From positions 898,001 to 962,000 of the forward strand of contig NZ_AP018828.1 of assembly GCF_003966695.1 (NCBI RefSeq): a stretch of DNA of 64,000 nucleotides, in the 5' to 3' direction. Source of the DNA: Asticcacaulis excentricus. GTDB lineage: Bacteria > Pseudomonadota > Alphaproteobacteria > Caulobacterales > Caulobacteraceae. Under the pieces are notes generated by a model. The model made no database searches, was not told the origin of the DNA, and was given only the letters and a program-made list of their open reading frames with translations. The stretch's first letter is position 1. Every line of letters starts with the position of its first letter. The position numbers and the translations under genes are program-made. This document shows positions 39,987 through 48,059 of the stretch, piece after piece.

Positions 39987-40820
39987 CTACTGGAAGAGTC
40001 GGAGGATGGCCTGCGGCGACTGGTTGGCAATCGACAGGGCCTGCGTGCCCAATTGTTGCTGCACCTGAAGGGCCTGCAAGCGGGCGCTTTCCTTGGCCAG
40101 ATCGGCGTCAACCAGGTTGCCGATGCCGACTTCGATAGCGCCGGAGAGTTTGGCGACGAAGTTTTGACGCCCCTCGATCTGCTTGGCTTCCGAACCCAGC
40201 GCAGCAAGGCTGGCATTAACGTTGTTGATCGAGGCATCCAGACGGGCCAGAGCCGACGTCGCCCGGGTCAGGGTCAGCACATTGGCCGCCGCCGACAGCG
40301 TGATAATCGTGCCCCCCAGACTGAAATTGCGCGACGACAGGGTTACAACCGAACTACCATCGGCGTTATCGATAAATTTAATGCCGTTCGTGATCGTGCC
40401 GTTAAGCAGGTTGGTGCCATCGAAAGACGAATTGGCTACGGCATGGCTGATCTGACGGAGAAGTTCGCGGAAATCACCATTCAGAGCGTTTCGCGAGGCC
40501 GTTGAAAGCGACGGGTCCATGGCCGAAACGACCTTGTCGCGCATCTGTACCAGAAGGTCGGAGACCGACTCCCCGGCCGCCAGCGTCACGTCAGCGACCG
40601 ATGTCGCCCGGTTAAGCGAGTTTTTCACCGCACTGAGCGAGCTGAGGTCAGCGCGCTGCCCCTGCGCGATCGAATACAGGGCCGCATTGTCCTTAGCGCT
40701 GGACACCTCAAGGCCTGTGGAGATCTTGGTTTGCGTCGATTCCAGTTTGCGGGTCGTTGCATTCAGATTTTGCAACGCCGTCATGGCAGTCTTGTTGGTA
40801 TTGACGCTTACCGTCGGCAT
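39987..40820 (-). CDS. Flagellin A (divergent paralogue)
   Basis: 277 residues with intact flagellin ends: VSVNTNKTAMTALQNLNATT at the N-terminus and [20 protein letters not shown] at the C-terminus, the D0/D1 helices that build the filament core. The central domain is short, as in other Caulobacterales flagellins. It is clearly further from B and C than they are from each other, for example TTRKLESTQTKISTG against [15 protein letters not shown]. It could be the FljJ-like specialised paralogue. GGAGA lies 9 bases before the ATG. No sigma-54 box is visible upstream, so it may be transcribed with flaG. Confidence 0.93.
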   Translation of the reverse strand: MPTVSVNTNKTAMTALQNLNATTRKLESTQTKISTGLEVSSAKDNAALYSIAQGQRADLSSLSAVKNSLNRATSVADVTLAAGESVSDLLVQMRDKVVSAMDPSLSTASRNALNGDFRELLRQISHAVANSSFDGTNLLNGTITNGIKFIDNADGSSVVTLSSRNFSLGGTIITLSAAANVLTLTRATSALARLDASINNVNASLAALGSEAKQIEGRQNFVAKLSGAIEVGIGNLVDADLAKESARLQALQVQQQLGTQALSIANQSPQAILRLFQ

Positions 40821-41407: not shown

Positions 41408-42226
41408 TTAACGGAACAGGCTCAGAACCGTCGAAGTCGATTGGTTCGCAATCGACAGGGCCTGAACGCCAAGCTGTTGCTTGGTTTGCAGGGCCTGCAG
41501 CTTCGCGCTTTCCTTCGCCAGGTCGGCATCCACAAGGTTGCCGATCCCGTTTTCGATCGAGTCAGACAGCTTGCTGATGAAGTTGGCGTGGTTAGCCAGC
41601 GACTTCGAAGACGTACCGAGCTTCGCCAGCTTGGCCGAAACGTCGTCGATCTTGGTCGCGAGGGTCGCAACCGCCGCCGAAGCCGTAGCCTTGGTGCCGA
41701 TCGTCGTCGCGTTGATACCCAGACCCGTCAGAGACAGGTTTTGAGCCGCAACGGTCAGCGTACCACCGGAGTCGTTGGCCAGAGCCGAGAGGGCCGAGCC
41801 ACCTTGCTTGATGATGTTGATGCCGTTGAACGTCGCGTTGTTGACGGTCTTGCCGATCTGGTCGCGGATCGCCTTGAAATCTTCGTTCAGAGCGGTGCGG
41901 CTGGCCGTGCTCAAGCTGGAGTCAGACGCTGCGAGGGCCTTTTCCTTCAACTGCGAGAGCATGTCGGAAACGGATTCGCCGGCCGAGATGGCCACATCGA
42001 CGACAGATTGGTTACGGGAGAGCGATTCCTGAACCGCGTTGAGCGAGGAAACCTGAGCGCGCTGCCCTTGGGCGATGGCGAAGACGGCGCCGTTGTCCTT
42101 GGCGCTGGCGACCTTCTGGCCCGTGTTGATACGGGTTTGGGTCGTTTGCAGGTCGGCGTTGGTCTTGTTCAGGTTTTGCAGAGCAATCATAGCTCCGCTG
42201 TTGGTATTCACGCTATTGAGCGCCAT
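41408..42226 (-). CDS. Flagellin B
   Basis: 272 residues: [20 protein letters not shown] at the start, [20 protein letters not shown], and [20 protein letters not shown] with [11 protein letters not shown] at the end. It is a filament subunit, exported by the flagellar apparatus without a signal peptide. It has its own sigma-54-like promoter, three ftr boxes and a terminator. The Shine-Dalgarno AAGGA lies in the loop of a small hairpin in the leader, a likely point of translational control (FlbT in Caulobacter acts on flagellin mRNA leaders). Confidence 0.96.
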   Translation of the reverse strand: MALNSVNTNSGAMIALQNLNKTNADLQTTQTRINTGQKVASAKDNGAVFAIAQGQRAQVSSLNAVQESLSRNQSVVDVAISAGESVSDMLSQLKEKALAASDSSLSTASRTALNEDFKAIRDQIGKTVNNATFNGINIIKQGGSALSALANDSGGTLTVAAQNLSLTGLGINATTIGTKATASAAVATLATKIDDVSAKLAKLGTSSKSLANHANFISKLSDSIENGIGNLVDADLAKESAKLQALQTKQQLGVQALSIANQSTSTVLSLFR

Positions 42227-43980: not shown

Positions 43981-44365
43981 GTCCAAGTCTTTCGTCTTCG
44001 TACTCGATAAGCTTACGGCAGCCCATCAGGGCCTTGTAATATTCGCGCCCCATGATGGCTTTGGAGATCACCACACATTCCGCCAGAATGGCCGGATTGG
44101 CGATGACGCTCATGAATTCGGTCATGCGCGTCAGGAATTCGTCGTAGTATTTTTCCGCCCCCGCCTCATCGAGGTACATCATCATCACCGGGAAGTAGAT
44201 GTGACGCGACGGAGAGGTGACCTCGCTGGCCTGCATGATGTCTTTTTCACGCAGCACCGAGGCCTTGTTCTGGAGCACAAGCGAACACCGGCGGTCACCG
44301 TTCTGCACGACGGCACCGTTGAGAACAAATTTTTCACCCGGCTTGAGCGACAGTTTGAGCGGCAT
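43940..44365 (-). CDS. flbT: Flagellin translation regulator FlbT
   Basis: 141 residues, matching the family length. It starts [20 protein letters not shown] and has [16 protein letters not shown] and [20 protein letters not shown], all typical of FlbT. In Caulobacter FlbT binds flagellin mRNA leaders and blocks translation until the hook is finished. AAAGGA lies upstream of the ATG at 44365. It overlaps flaF and is divergent from the flmG-like gene. Confidence 0.95.
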
Positions 44366-44393
44366 GTGAGTCCTTTTGGCCAGCAGCTTAGGC

Positions 44394-44423
44394 TTCGCAC
44401 GGTTAATATCCGGTTTCGCACGG
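44394..44423. promoter_or_regulatory. Direct repeats between flbT and the flmG-like gene
   Basis: TTCGCACGG occurs at 44394-44402 and 44415-44423, 21 bp (two helical turns) apart, in the 208-bp divergent region. GGTTAATATC lies between. This is a candidate operator for flbT-flaF or flmG; I recognise no known binding site. Confidence 0.4.
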
Positions 44424-44573
44424 CCGCAAATATAACGGGCGTAACGCTATCCTGATCTTAATCGAATCATCGCATAAGATTGCACGTTCATGACCATCTG
44501 TCCTCACCTTCGGTCAAATGCCCCATACAGAAAGCGGCACGAGCGTGGGGCACAGACGGGTGCGGAGAGTCCA

Positions 44574-47500
44574 ATGCCCAAAAAAACGTGGCCAATCAAA
44601 CATCAGGCTGTTGAAACCGCGGCCGCAGAGGCCCTTGAGATACGCCCGGCAAAGGTTCTCGCCACGCCCGATACGGTCAGCTCTATCGCGATGAACGCCG
44701 CCGCCACGCCTCCGGGTAAGGACGTTCTGGCCGATCTGGCCTCAACGATTCTTGGGGATTCCGGGTCTTCGGCCGCCCTCGACGCACTGATGGAGGCCAC
44801 ACGCTACATCAGCGAGGTGCGTCTGCTCACGCTTTTGAAGGACTCGCTGCTGCTCGTCCAGAAATCCGACTATGAGGGGGCGACGCAAAAGGCGCTGGAA
44901 GCGCTGCGCGTCAATGAAAAGTGCGGCACGGCCTGGCATATTCTGGCCGTATGCCGCGAAAAGGCCGGCGACATCAAAAGCGCCTTCACCTGTTTCGAAG
45001 CCGCCCTGCAACTCGAAGAAGACAATACCGGCATCGCCAATGATCTGGGCCGTCTGGCCTATCAACTGGACATGCACACGCAGGCTGAAAAGCTGTTCCG
45101 CTATGTCCTCGGCAAAAACCCGGACGATTTTGAGGTCGCCAACAACCTCGCCTCGTGCCTGCGCGAAGTCAGCCGCTTTGAAGAGGCGATTGCGCTCCTG
45201 ACGCCGTTTCTGGAGAAGGACCCGTCCAACGGCACGCTGTGGAACACGCTGGGCACGGTGGTCAATGCCAAGGGTGACCTGCCGACCGCCCTCCTCTTCT
45301 TCGACGAAGCCGTAAAATTCGTCCCGGATGACCCCAAGCCCTGGCACAATCGCGGCCTGATCCTCGGCGCTCTGGGCGAGATTGACGCGGCGATCCACAG
45401 CCTTGAGGCCGGCATCAAGCGCATGGTCTCGCCCGCCCAGATCGAGGCGGCGGAATTGGCCATGGCCTTCTGCTATTTCTGCAAGGGCGATCTGATGCCC
45501 GGCTATCGTTACTATGCGGCGCGCAAAGGCCTGCATAGCCTTGAAGGCATGAAGTATATTACCGACGTCCCGGCGCTGGATCTGTCGCAGTCCCTGACGG
45601 GCAAGTCGGTGTTCGTCACCACCGAGCAGGGGCTGGGCGACGAGATTCTGTTTGGCACGGTGCTACCCGACCTTCTGGCCGAAATGGGCCCGGAGGGGCA
45701 CCTGACTCTGGCCGTGGAAAGACGCCTTGTCCCCCTCTATGCGCGCAGCTTCCCGCAGGCGACGGTGATCGCCCACGGCACGGGCAAGATCAATGGCATT
45801 ACGGTGCGTCACTTCCCCGGAATGGACACCACACGCGCCTATGACGGCTTTGTCATGCTGGGCGACCTGCTGCCGCGCTACCGGCCCAATGCGCAGGCCT
45901 TTCCGCGGCAAAAAAGCTTCCTCACCCCCGATCCTGCGCGCGTCGCCCACTGGAAGGCCGAGCTGGACAAGCTGGGGCCTGAGCCCAAGATCGGCCTTTT
46001 GTGGAAAAGCCTGGTCCAGCATTCACGCCGCGACCGCTACTATTCCCCCTTTGAAAGCTGGGCCCCCATCCTGCGCACGCCCGGCGCCGTTTTTGTCAAT
46101 CTTCAGTACGGCGATGTCAGTGAAGAACTGCGTCAGGCCGAACGCGAAGGCCTGAGCATCTGGAACCCGCCGGGCATCGACCTGAAGCAGGATCTGGATG
46201 ATCTGGCCGCCCTGTGCGCCGCCATGGACCTGATCATGGGGCCTTCAAACGCCACCAGCAATATCGCGGCCAGCGTCGGCACCCCTATCTGGATACTCTC
46301 CCCGTCCAATAGCTGGCCCACGATGGGCACCGACTATTACCCGTGGTACGGCAGCGCCCGAATATTCCTGACGCCCACCCCCGGCGAGTGGACGCCTGCG
46401 CTAGAGGACATGCGTCAGGCCCTGATCCGTGAGGTCGCCGCCCCGGTGCAGGCCCTATCCAGTGACGATATACGCCGTCAGTTTCAGGGTGTTGAGCGCG
46501 CCCTTCTGATGCGCGACTGGGCCGAGGCCGAAACGCAGGCCCGCGCCCTTTTACGTCACGTGCCCGACCATATCGGTGCCTGGCAGGCGCTGGCCACCGC
46601 GCTTGACCGGCAGGACCGCATTCCGCAGGCCCTCGACGCCTATCAAACGGCTCTGAAGCATCAGCCGGACTCGCTCGATATCGCCGCCGATCTGGCGCAA
46701 CTGGCCTTCCGCATCGGCCTTTATGACATGGCCGAACGCTTTTACGGCCTGATCGTTCAGCGCGATCCCGGTCACCTGATGGCCGTCAACTATTACGCTG
46801 CGGCGCTGCGCGAACAGTCGAAGTTCGATCAGGCCATCACGCTTCTTCAGGCCTATCTGAGCGACTATCCGAAGCAAAGCGCCCTGTGGGATACGCTCGG
46901 CACCATCCTGCTGGCGCAGGGCGATGCCGACACGGCGCTGATCTTCTTCAACGAAGCCATCTCGCTGGACAACAGCCTGCCGGCGCGCTTCAACCGCGCC
47001 TGCCTGTGGATCGAGAAAGGTCTGCTGGCCGAGGCCCTGCCGGAGCTGGAACTGTGTCTGGATCGTTTCTCCGAGCCCGGCAATCTGCGTTCGGTCGAAC
47101 TGAGCATGGCCTATGCCCATCTGGGCCTTGGCAATCTCCAGGCCGGGTGGCAGGCCTATGCGGCGCGCCATATGACCGGCACGCCGAAAGAGGTGCATTT
47201 CGACCTGCCCACAGGCCCGCTCAAGCCCGAAGAGATTGCCGGCAAGCGTCTGTTATTGCTGGCCGAACAGGGGCTGGGCGACGAGGTCATGTTCGGGACT
47301 CTGGTGCCCGATATTATCGAAAAGCTGGGCAACGGGGTTTTGACCTTAGCCGTTGAAAAGCGCCTCGTGCCGCTGTTTGCCCGCGCCTTCCCCAAGGCCC
47401 GCGTTCTGCCGCATCACACCGAAAGCCGTGACGGCGTCATTACCCGCAGCGTGCCGGGCCTGTCGGGCGACAGCGTGGACGGCTGGGCGCTGATGGGGGA

Positions 47501-48059
47501 TTTCCTGCCGCTGTTGCGCGGCGATCTGGAGGCCTTTGCCAATAAAGCGCCGGTGTTCGTGCCTGACCCGGCGCGCGTCGCTTTCTGGAAAGGCGAACTG
47601 GCCAGACAGGGCAGCGGCCCGAAGGTTGGCCTGCTATGGAAAAGCCTGATCAGCCATTCCCGTCGCGACCGCTTCTATCCGCCTTTTGAGTCCCTCGCAC
47701 CGCTGCTGGGGCGCAAGGACCTCGTCCTCGTCAACCTGCAATATGGCGAGACGGTCAGCGAACAGATCGCCGCCAAGGCGCAAGGCGCGCGCTTCTACAC
47801 CCCGCCCATCGACCTGCTGAACGATCTGGGTGAGCTGAGTGCCCTGTGCGCGGCGCTGGACGTGGTCATCGGCCCCGCCAATGCAAGCACGCAGATCGCC
47901 GCGGCGACCGGTGTGCCGACCTGGTTCGTCATGACGCCCGGCTCGTGGACCCAATTGGGGAGCGACCATTGCCCGTGGTACGCCAATGCCCGCGTCTTCG
48001 TCACCGAGGAGGGGCAGTGGGGGTCGCTCATGCAACGGGTGTCGGAAGAGATCAAATAA
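44574..48059 (+). CDS. flmG: FlmG/FlbA-like flagellin glycosyltransferase, internally duplicated (TPR-GT-TPR-GT)
   Basis: 1161 residues from the ATG at 44574 (GGAGAG upstream). Two colinear halves, offset by about 547 residues, each have TPR helices followed by a GT-B-like domain. GT domain 1 starts GKSVFVTTEQGLGDEILFGT (Gly343) and domain 2 GKRLLLLAEQGLGDEVMFGT (Gly890). Both have a GLLWKSL..HSRRDR motif and the C-terminal MGPSNATSNIAASVGTP or IGPANASTQIAAATGVP. In Caulobacter a single TPR-GT protein, FlmG, binds flagellins by its TPRs and glycosylates them. The gene's place beside flbT and the flagellins supports that role. Both GT copies look intact. Confidence 0.85.
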   Translation: MPKKTWPIKHQAVETAAAEALEIRPAKVLATPDTVSSIAMNAAATPPGKDVLADLASTILGDSGSSAALDALMEATRYISEVRLLTLLKDSLLLVQKSDYEGATQKALEALRVNEKCGTAWHILAVCREKAGDIKSAFTCFEAALQLEEDNTGIANDLGRLAYQLDMHTQAEKLFRYVLGKNPDDFEVANNLASCLREVSRFEEAIALLTPFLEKDPSNGTLWNTLGTVVNAKGDLPTALLFFDEAVKFVPDDPKPWHNRGLILGALGEIDAAIHSLEAGIKRMVSPAQIEAAELAMAFCYFCKGDLMPGYRYYAARKGLHSLEGMKYITDVPALDLSQSLTGKSVFVTTEQGLGDEILFGTVLPDLLAEMGPEGHLTLAVERRLVPLYARSFPQATVIAHGTGKINGITVRHFPGMDTTRAYDGFVMLGDLLPRYRPNAQAFPRQKSFLTPDPARVAHWKAELDKLGPEPKIGLLWKSLVQHSRRDRYYSPFESWAPILRTPGAVFVNLQYGDVSEELRQAEREGLSIWNPPGIDLKQDLDDLAALCAAMDLIMGPSNATSNIAASVGTPIWILSPSNSWPTMGTDYYPWYGSARIFLTPTPGEWTPALEDMRQALIREVAAPVQALSSDDIRRQFQGVERALLMRDWAEAETQARALLRHVPDHIGAWQALATALDRQDRIPQALDAYQTALKHQPDSLDIAADLAQLAFRIGLYDMAERFYGLIVQRDPGHLMAVNYYAAALREQSKFDQAITLLQAYLSDYPKQSALWDTLGTILLAQGDADTALIFFNEAISLDNSLPARFNRACLWIEKGLLAEALPELELCLDRFSEPGNLRSVELSMAYAHLGLGNLQAGWQAYAARHMTGTPKEVHFDLPTGPLKPEEIAGKRLLLLAEQGLGDEVMFGTLVPDIIEKLGNGVLTLAVEKRLVPLFARAFPKARVLPHHTESRDGVITRSVPGLSGDSVDGWALMGDFLPLLRGDLEAFANKAPVFVPDPARVAFWKGELARQGSGPKVGLLWKSLISHSRRDRFYPPFESLAPLLGRKDLVLVNLQYGETVSEQIAAKAQGARFYTPPIDLLNDLGELSALCAALDVVIGPANASTQIAAATGVPTWFVMTPGSWTQLGSDHCPWYANARVFVTEEGQWGSLMQRVSEEIK

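Follow-up and report, generated by a model that had tools for sequence, protein, structure and literature searches.

The window analysed here is a stretch of 64,000 nucleotides from Asticcacaulis excentricus (positions 898,001 to 962,000 of contig NZ_AP018828.1), and the gene in question lies on its forward strand at 44574..48059 (window coordinates, as are all those below). It encodes a protein of 1161 amino acids (aa) in which a tetratricopeptide repeat (TPR) domain followed by a glycosyltransferase (GT) domain occurs twice. From its open reading frame (ORF), self-alignment, a tree of units and an AlphaFold model, it is read here as a fused flmG1-flmG2 gene for a flagellin glycosyltransferase. 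The longest possible ORF starts at 44490, 28 codons further upstream. The modules, all on the same strand, begin with the helical array TPR1 (residues 66-318, 44769..45527), which is defined by TPR matches, rates and the model and is fast-evolving in the fused lineage. GT1 follows (residues 345-600, 45606..46373), a slow-evolving domain with a GT9-like GT-B fold according to rates, model and fold search. A junction, placed by comparison of fused genomes at about residues 606-660 (46389..46553), leads from the tail of unit 1 into the head of unit 2. Then come the helical array TPR2 (residues 630-866, 46461..47171), by rates and model the slowest-evolving segment of the fused form, and GT2 (residues 892-1143, 47247..48002), which by column counts, rates and model keeps most GT invariants and evolves faster than GT1. 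Alignment marks out a loop in GT2 (residues 1074-1112, 47793..47909), where G534 of GT1 is deleted, the equivalent of K538 is replaced (residue 1082) and that of N563 is glutamine (residue 1107).

An earlier note, made from the sequence alone, had described a FlmG-like protein with two TPR-GT units in two colinear halves, offset by about 547 residues, and alignment and the model agree with it. Pairwise BLASTP aligns residues 99-600 with 647-1144 at 203/503 identical positions (40%, E = 5e-133), which establishes the halves as homologous, and the best long self-alignment diagonals lie at offsets 544-549. The motifs it had listed are all present: a GT start (GLGDEILFGT in half 1, GLGDEVMFGT in half 2), GLLWKSL..HSRRDR in both halves, and PSNAT or PANAS. 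In the AlphaFold model (mean pLDDT 85.7), which delimits the two TPR arrays and two GT domains as given above, both halves are predicted to fold confidently. The hallmark of FlmG, a TPR domain followed by a GT-B domain, is thus found twice over, in the TPR matches and in the model. In a fold search with GT1 only, the domain resembles GT9 GT-B folds.

The FlmG of Caulobacter crescentus (CCNA_01524) is a protein of 596 aa with one TPR-GT unit, in agreement with the earlier note; its TPR domain reportedly binds flagellin, which the GT domain modifies (PMC7591256). The 1161-aa protein is like C. crescentus FlmG in its N-terminal TPR and C-terminal GT-B domains, in the pseudaminic acid genes and in the flagellin locus, but unlike it in having two units in one chain, a changed GT2 loop and a crossed pattern of constraint. 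Orthology is supported by FlmG of Caulobacter sp. BP25 as the comparison sequence (one gene beside flbT-flaF, 598 aa, 45.6% identity to the N unit) and by the same locus in other genera. A single unit of about 600 aa is typical of the described FlmG but is not taken to define the type, and with 1161 aa and two units the fused protein departs from it.

A homologue search covered 149 genomes of the family Caulobacteraceae at a threshold of E 1e-30, with matches in 120 of them and in all 25 genomes of Asticcacaulis. Within the genus, eight of 25 genomes carry the fused form (G000, G129, G099, G104, G094, G085, G029 and G137), 15 have two intact adjacent flmG genes, one (G109) has a pair whose second gene is broken and one (G075) has a single flmG. 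The second gene of G109 is split across three ORFs (L031 3627-5163), either through recent loss or through an error in sequencing. When the longest ORFs are taken, the intact pairs overlap in 12 of 15 genomes, five of these by 4 bases, and in the remaining three the genes are 403-809 bases apart. In the fused genomes the junction measures 54 residues in 8/8, and its sequence reads as a gene 1 tail that continues into a gene 2 head. Seven full-length doubles (P0001-P0007, 50-95% identical) are also found among the 120 listed of 258 homologues, some of them near copies of the eight fused genomes, and a 98%-identical gene copy occurs in a metagenome-assembled genome, Asticcacaulis sp. isolate W46. 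The double form is therefore no assembly accident, since it is full-length in 8/25 genomes of the genus and in seven listed homologues.

Outside the genus 97 genomes match, 38 of them more than once (two, three or four matches, possibly including fragments). Loci were read in 22 of the 97, including four picked for side-by-side matches. One gene lies at the flbT-flaF locus in 17 of the 22 (2.7 kb off in G053; G146 has a second copy elsewhere), and these single orthologues show that the double form is not universal. In G131 the stretch read holds one gene and lacks flbT; G051 has three tandem flmG copies (L053 1963-7146) and G084, G098 and G123 have two each (L051, L052 and L054). Three further loci, two with long stop-to-stop frames, each hold a lone gene (596-599 aa). 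No fused form emerged from other genera: among the matches listed, only the eight from Asticcacaulis span both halves.

The history of the two halves was examined in an IQ-TREE tree of 69 TPR-GT units; gene 2 of G109 was excluded from trees and rates for its broken frame, G149 and G150 are absent from the unit tree, and G098_2 was trimmed to its last 591 residues because its ORF start is extended. All Asticcacaulis units cluster together (100/100). The C halves and the second genes form one group (100/99), the N halves, the first genes and the gene of G075 form another (92/61), and the fused N and fused C units are each monophyletic at 100/100. Since the halves group with genes 1 and 2, the duplication predates the split between fused and paired forms. 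The unfused pairs thus correspond to the two halves in grouping and in locus, and differ in being two genes, the second of which is the faster-evolving one in TPR and GT alike (13 pairs).

In the unit tree the fused lineage is sister to the paired one. Taken alone, this tree fits either direction of change, including a double form that arose first, by in-frame internal duplication, with the pairs as later fissions. A second tree was built from neighbouring genes (FlbT, FlaF, Usp and HD; 31 rows, with G109 counted as a pair and G150 as a single). Here the fused genomes form one clade (100/99) whose sister is G075 on a long branch (96/93), and the deepest fork within the genus has paired genomes on either side (83/86), which makes one fusion simpler than repeated fission. 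In the multi-copy loci outside the genus (G051, G084, G098 and G123) tandem copies are likewise separate genes. On these two grounds fission is quite improbable, and the trees suggest that the double protein arose when tandem paralogues fused, the pair being the older state, and not by a new duplication inside one gene. The internal tandem duplication of the earlier note is right in its homologous halves and is better read, as to origin, as the joining of adjacent and often overlapping paralogue genes. In the unit tree G098 and G123 contribute four units, which cluster together and split into copies 1 and copies 2, and the units of G051 and G084 form another clade; judged by the unit sequences, both duplications are separate from that in Asticcacaulis.

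Rates of evolution were compared as tree lengths on a fixed topology for eight fused proteins (that of the window, those of four loci, P0004, P0006 and P0007), with 5-95% ranges from 40 bootstraps. The lengths are 2.89 (2.45-3.26) for TPR1, 2.01 (1.82-2.37) for GT1, 1.80 (1.56-2.02) for TPR2 and 2.77 (2.55-3.09) for GT2. The fused form thus shows crossed constraint, with slow GT1 and TPR2 and faster TPR1 and GT2. The eight fused genomes of the genus taken by themselves give 1.31, 0.93, 0.71 and 1.39 in the same order, and 13 unfused pairs give 3.11, 2.48, 4.83 and 3.63. Among homologous columns of the fused form, more steps fall in unit 1 for 110 TPR columns and in unit 2 for 61 (p = 0.0003), and in unit 1 for 52 GT columns and in unit 2 for 114 (p = 1.4e-5); restricted to four fused genomes, the comparison gives p = 0.0006 for TPR and 0.03 for GT. 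For the unfused pairs the faster unit is unit 2, by TPR columns (p = 0.003) as well as by GT columns (p = 7e-8, 13 genomes). All these p-values are guides only, because the columns are mutually dependent and the fused clade counts as a single event. The ratio of nonsynonymous to synonymous substitution rates (dN/dS) lies between 0.02 and 0.34 over nine pairs and four segments (0.08-0.26 for GT2), which indicates that purifying selection acts on all four modules. That the second half is a plain pseudogene was considered and rejected, dN/dS being low in all segments. The well-kept GT1 and TPR2 hint at a division of work between the two copies.

The GT2 unit was also examined residue by residue. 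A near-invariant set was defined as the 82 columns with conservation of 95% or more across the fused N units, gene 1 (including G075) and 15 other-genus singles. Of these columns, 65 are retained in every one of the eight fused C units and 51 in every one of the 13 second genes. The equivalents of E351, D356, E382, R384, H401, R437, K478, R486, Q511 and D540 are kept in GT2 in 8/8. The equivalent of K538 is replaced (by L, M, R, Q or T) in the fused C unit in 12/12 rows, which are not independent, as several P entries are near copies of the sampled genomes. The fused N unit has K in 11 of the 12 rows (R in P0006), and the lysine is present in 13/13 second genes, 15/15 singles and 14/15 first genes (T in G075). 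The equivalent of N563 in the fused C unit is Q in ten of 12 rows (N in P0006 and P0007), and it is N in all other Caulobacteraceae units counted, including 13/13 second genes. Glycine 534 is absent from the fused C unit in 12/12 rows; its deletion was dropped as a GT2-specific mark, since 3/15 other-genus singles lack it too. The earlier note had called both GT domains intact, which is true of most invariants of GT2 but not of the lysine, lost in 12/12 fused rows, or of the asparagine, lost in 10/12.

These changes bear on the chief rival to a division of work, which is close to the proposal of the earlier note: two equal and independent TPR-GT units, each with its own sites or flagellins and using the same sugar, with fusion just fixing their ratio. 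The 65/82 near-invariant columns kept in all eight genomes, purifying selection on both units, the four flagellins encoded by the genome, and the 15/25 genomes of the genus in which both genes are intact and side by side would all fit such an arrangement. Constraint is crossed rather than equal, however, and the loop changes of GT2 are absent from its unfused orthologues, which keep both K538 and N563 in 13/13, so that equal units seem rather unlikely. If GT2 were instead a weak or inactive pseudo-transferase, acting as a scaffold or regulator with TPR2 retained for docking, the loss of the lysine in every fused row, the change of N563 to Q in most of them and the faster evolution of GT2 would be explained. 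Its dN/dS nevertheless remains at 0.08-0.26 and the ten conserved residues from E351 to D540 are kept in 8/8, and this explanation is improbable. In addition, K538 is lost in 5/10 units of other-genus multi-copy genomes (the second copies of G051, G084, G098 and G123, and G146b), so that its loss is not by itself the mark of a dead enzyme. That extra copies tend to lose this lysine would agree with a change of role common to them. In distant multi-unit proteins both positions vary.

On the opposite strand, to the left of the fused gene, lie FlbT, FlaF, three flagellins and a FlaG-like protein; to the right are a Usp protein and a nucleotidase-like (YfbR-like) protein, the HD of the neighbour-gene tree. 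Domain matches identify flbT (PF07378; 43940..44365, reverse strand), the divergent neighbour, flaF (PF07309; 43570..43986, reverse strand) and, all on the reverse strand, flagellin 1 (PF00669/PF00700; 42513..43385), flagellin 2 (41408..42226) and flagellin 3 (39987..40820), the likely substrates. The genome has four flagellin loci, three in the window and the fourth on contig C1. FlaF is a flagellin secretion chaperone in Caulobacter, according to the abstract of PMC7591256. Upstream of the fused gene, a full CtrA box was not found in 44201-44700, which has one GTTAA half site at 44402.

The sugar is suggested by PseB, PseC and PseI, which are encoded on another contig and all score above their NCBIfam cut-offs, as expected for pseudaminic acid synthesis. 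PseI is the sole NeuB-family gene found in the genome. The earlier note had raised the addition of two sugars in sequence; with this single nonulosonate synthase, two different sialic-type sugars for the two GT domains are unlikely and were rejected, and a second sugar of another class is possible. Among the fused genomes the argument from one synthase is valid for 7/8, since G099 has three NeuB-family matches. In G099 (L107 2065-7102) a LegC-like aminotransferase lies near an NnaB-type synthase, a second nonulosonate pathway that maybe serves a surface polysaccharide. The paired genomes G060, G052, G068 and G089 (L100-L103) have a second, weaker NeuB-family match in a 571-aa open frame.

A donor other than a de novo nonulosonic acid, with which GT2 would extend or cap the sugar set by GT1, is a more specific form of this idea. 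The changes in GT2 cluster in a stretch that presumably faces the donor, the N563 position probably corresponding to a donor-side histidine in heptosyltransferases. Position 538 may follow the donor, since G075 combines K538T with a NeuB-family enzyme below the PseI and NnaB cut-offs (n = 1). Yet the genome has only one NeuB-family gene, and as the unfused gene 2 retains K538 and N563, a new donor would have to be specific to the fused clade; it is very doubtful. G075 itself, the sole single-copy flmG genome of the genus, has the NeuB-family enzyme at L106 8189-9304, a further weaker NeuB-family match, and a FlmG (L045 5034-6872) with T where other first genes have K, a possible change of donor in this one genome.

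The reading preferred here is that the protein is a FlmG-family cytoplasmic flagellin O-glycosyltransferase made of two ancient paralogues, in which GT1 transfers, TPR2 docks and GT2 has an altered role (probability roughly 0.55). The tandem paralogues flmG1 and flmG2 would have been joined into one polypeptide. By analogy with FlmG, pseudaminic acid would be moved from its activated form onto Ser/Thr of the adjacently encoded flagellins, presumably in the cytoplasm and ahead of FlaF-assisted export. After fusion the modules may partly have split the work, a less certain step suggested by the pattern of constraint. GT1, with its site unchanged, would be the chief transferase; TPR2, between the two GT domains, the chief flagellin dock; and GT2, with its altered loop, might modify further sites, carry out a second step or have only weak activity. 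Tentatively, the partners may even have been swapped, such that TPR2 presents flagellin to GT1 (and GT2) and TPR1 and GT2 are freed for other sites or another step. If true, this would be an exchange of modules between two paralogous enzymes inside one chain.

Several observations weigh against this reading or parts of it. The model of the 1161-aa protein has a pTM of 0.52, so that the relative positions of its domains are unreliable. GT1 scores 15.3 bits with Pfam PF01075 (GT9), below the cut-off of 22, and GT2 has no match to this profile; the relation to GT9 is a fold resemblance only. In a quick tree of GT domains alone the first units stay together (94), but no single group unites the C halves with the second genes (2 changes). 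The greater age of the pair depends on a node of 83/86, and G075 stands with the fused clade in the neighbour-gene tree but in the unit tree with paired first genes. No crossing of constraint in dN/dS is seen in the closest pairs (G000-G129, for example), and as the fused taxa compared are one clade, the reversal is one evolutionary event. TPR2 may be slow because it is packed against the two GT domains on either side rather than because it binds flagellin. Evidence for the pseudaminic acid pathway covers PseB, PseC and PseI only.

The earlier note had regarded this architecture as the most novel in the window. A double or multi-unit FlmG was not found in the literature, in a search of titles and the starts of abstracts that covered few subscription papers and is weak evidence of absence. 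That the double architecture is unique is nevertheless rejected, since two- and three-unit homologues exist: among the 120 listed of 258 homologues, 40 proteins have one GT unit, 62 have two and 18 have three, counts biased by a length window of 0.55 to 1.75 times 1161 aa and with some second GT domains matched in two pieces and merged by rule. To judge from these sequences, multi-unit TPR-GT proteins are not confined to Asticcacaulis. Flagellin-locus proteins of Azospirillum (P0008 and P0031; L113 and L114) likewise have several TPR-GT units per chain, at about 28-33% identity to the 1161-aa protein, and in 2/2 plasmid loci read their genes are near flagellin and flbT (BLASTP matches of about 30% identity). 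In the quick GT tree the sampled Azospirillum units form one group against those of Asticcacaulis (SH-aLRT 100), and the multi-unit form there therefore arose separately.

More distant systems share single features with the fused protein. The GT9 heptosyltransferases WaaC, WaaF and TibC are just 11-19% identical in sequence; they lack TPRs and use heptose rather than pseudaminic acid. Eukaryotic O-GlcNAc transferase (OGT), a member of GT41, also combines a TPR superhelix with a GT-B transferase and is the top row in the fold search with the whole model. It has a single GT unit, unlike the 1161-aa protein, and with an rmsd of 37.8 over 621 residues the two are not superposable overall.

The comparison is relevant to how cytoplasmic flagellin glycosyltransferases select their sites. 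Asticcacaulis offers a natural series of single, paired and fused FlmG at one locus, and two GTs and two TPRs in one chain, with a clade-specific reversal of constraint, make the separation of docking from transfer modules directly testable. The Azospirillum relatives suggest that stacking of TPR-GT units is a recurring solution.

Two arrangements deserve separate mention. Genome G150 has one flmG at the usual flbT-flaF locus and an flmG1-flmG2 pair on another contig, where the surrounding stretch lacks flbT and flaF (L117 3335-5218; L116 4396-7726), with FlbT matched in two ORFs; this is either a mixed bin or a second locus. On the plasmids of A. brasilense and A. lipoferum, flagellin and flbT are directly followed by a three-unit TPR-GT protein of 1994 or 2007 aa, to which a two-unit protein is convergent (two- and three-unit genes at L113 8914-12606 and 13079-19063, and at L114 8860-12549 and 13787-19810).

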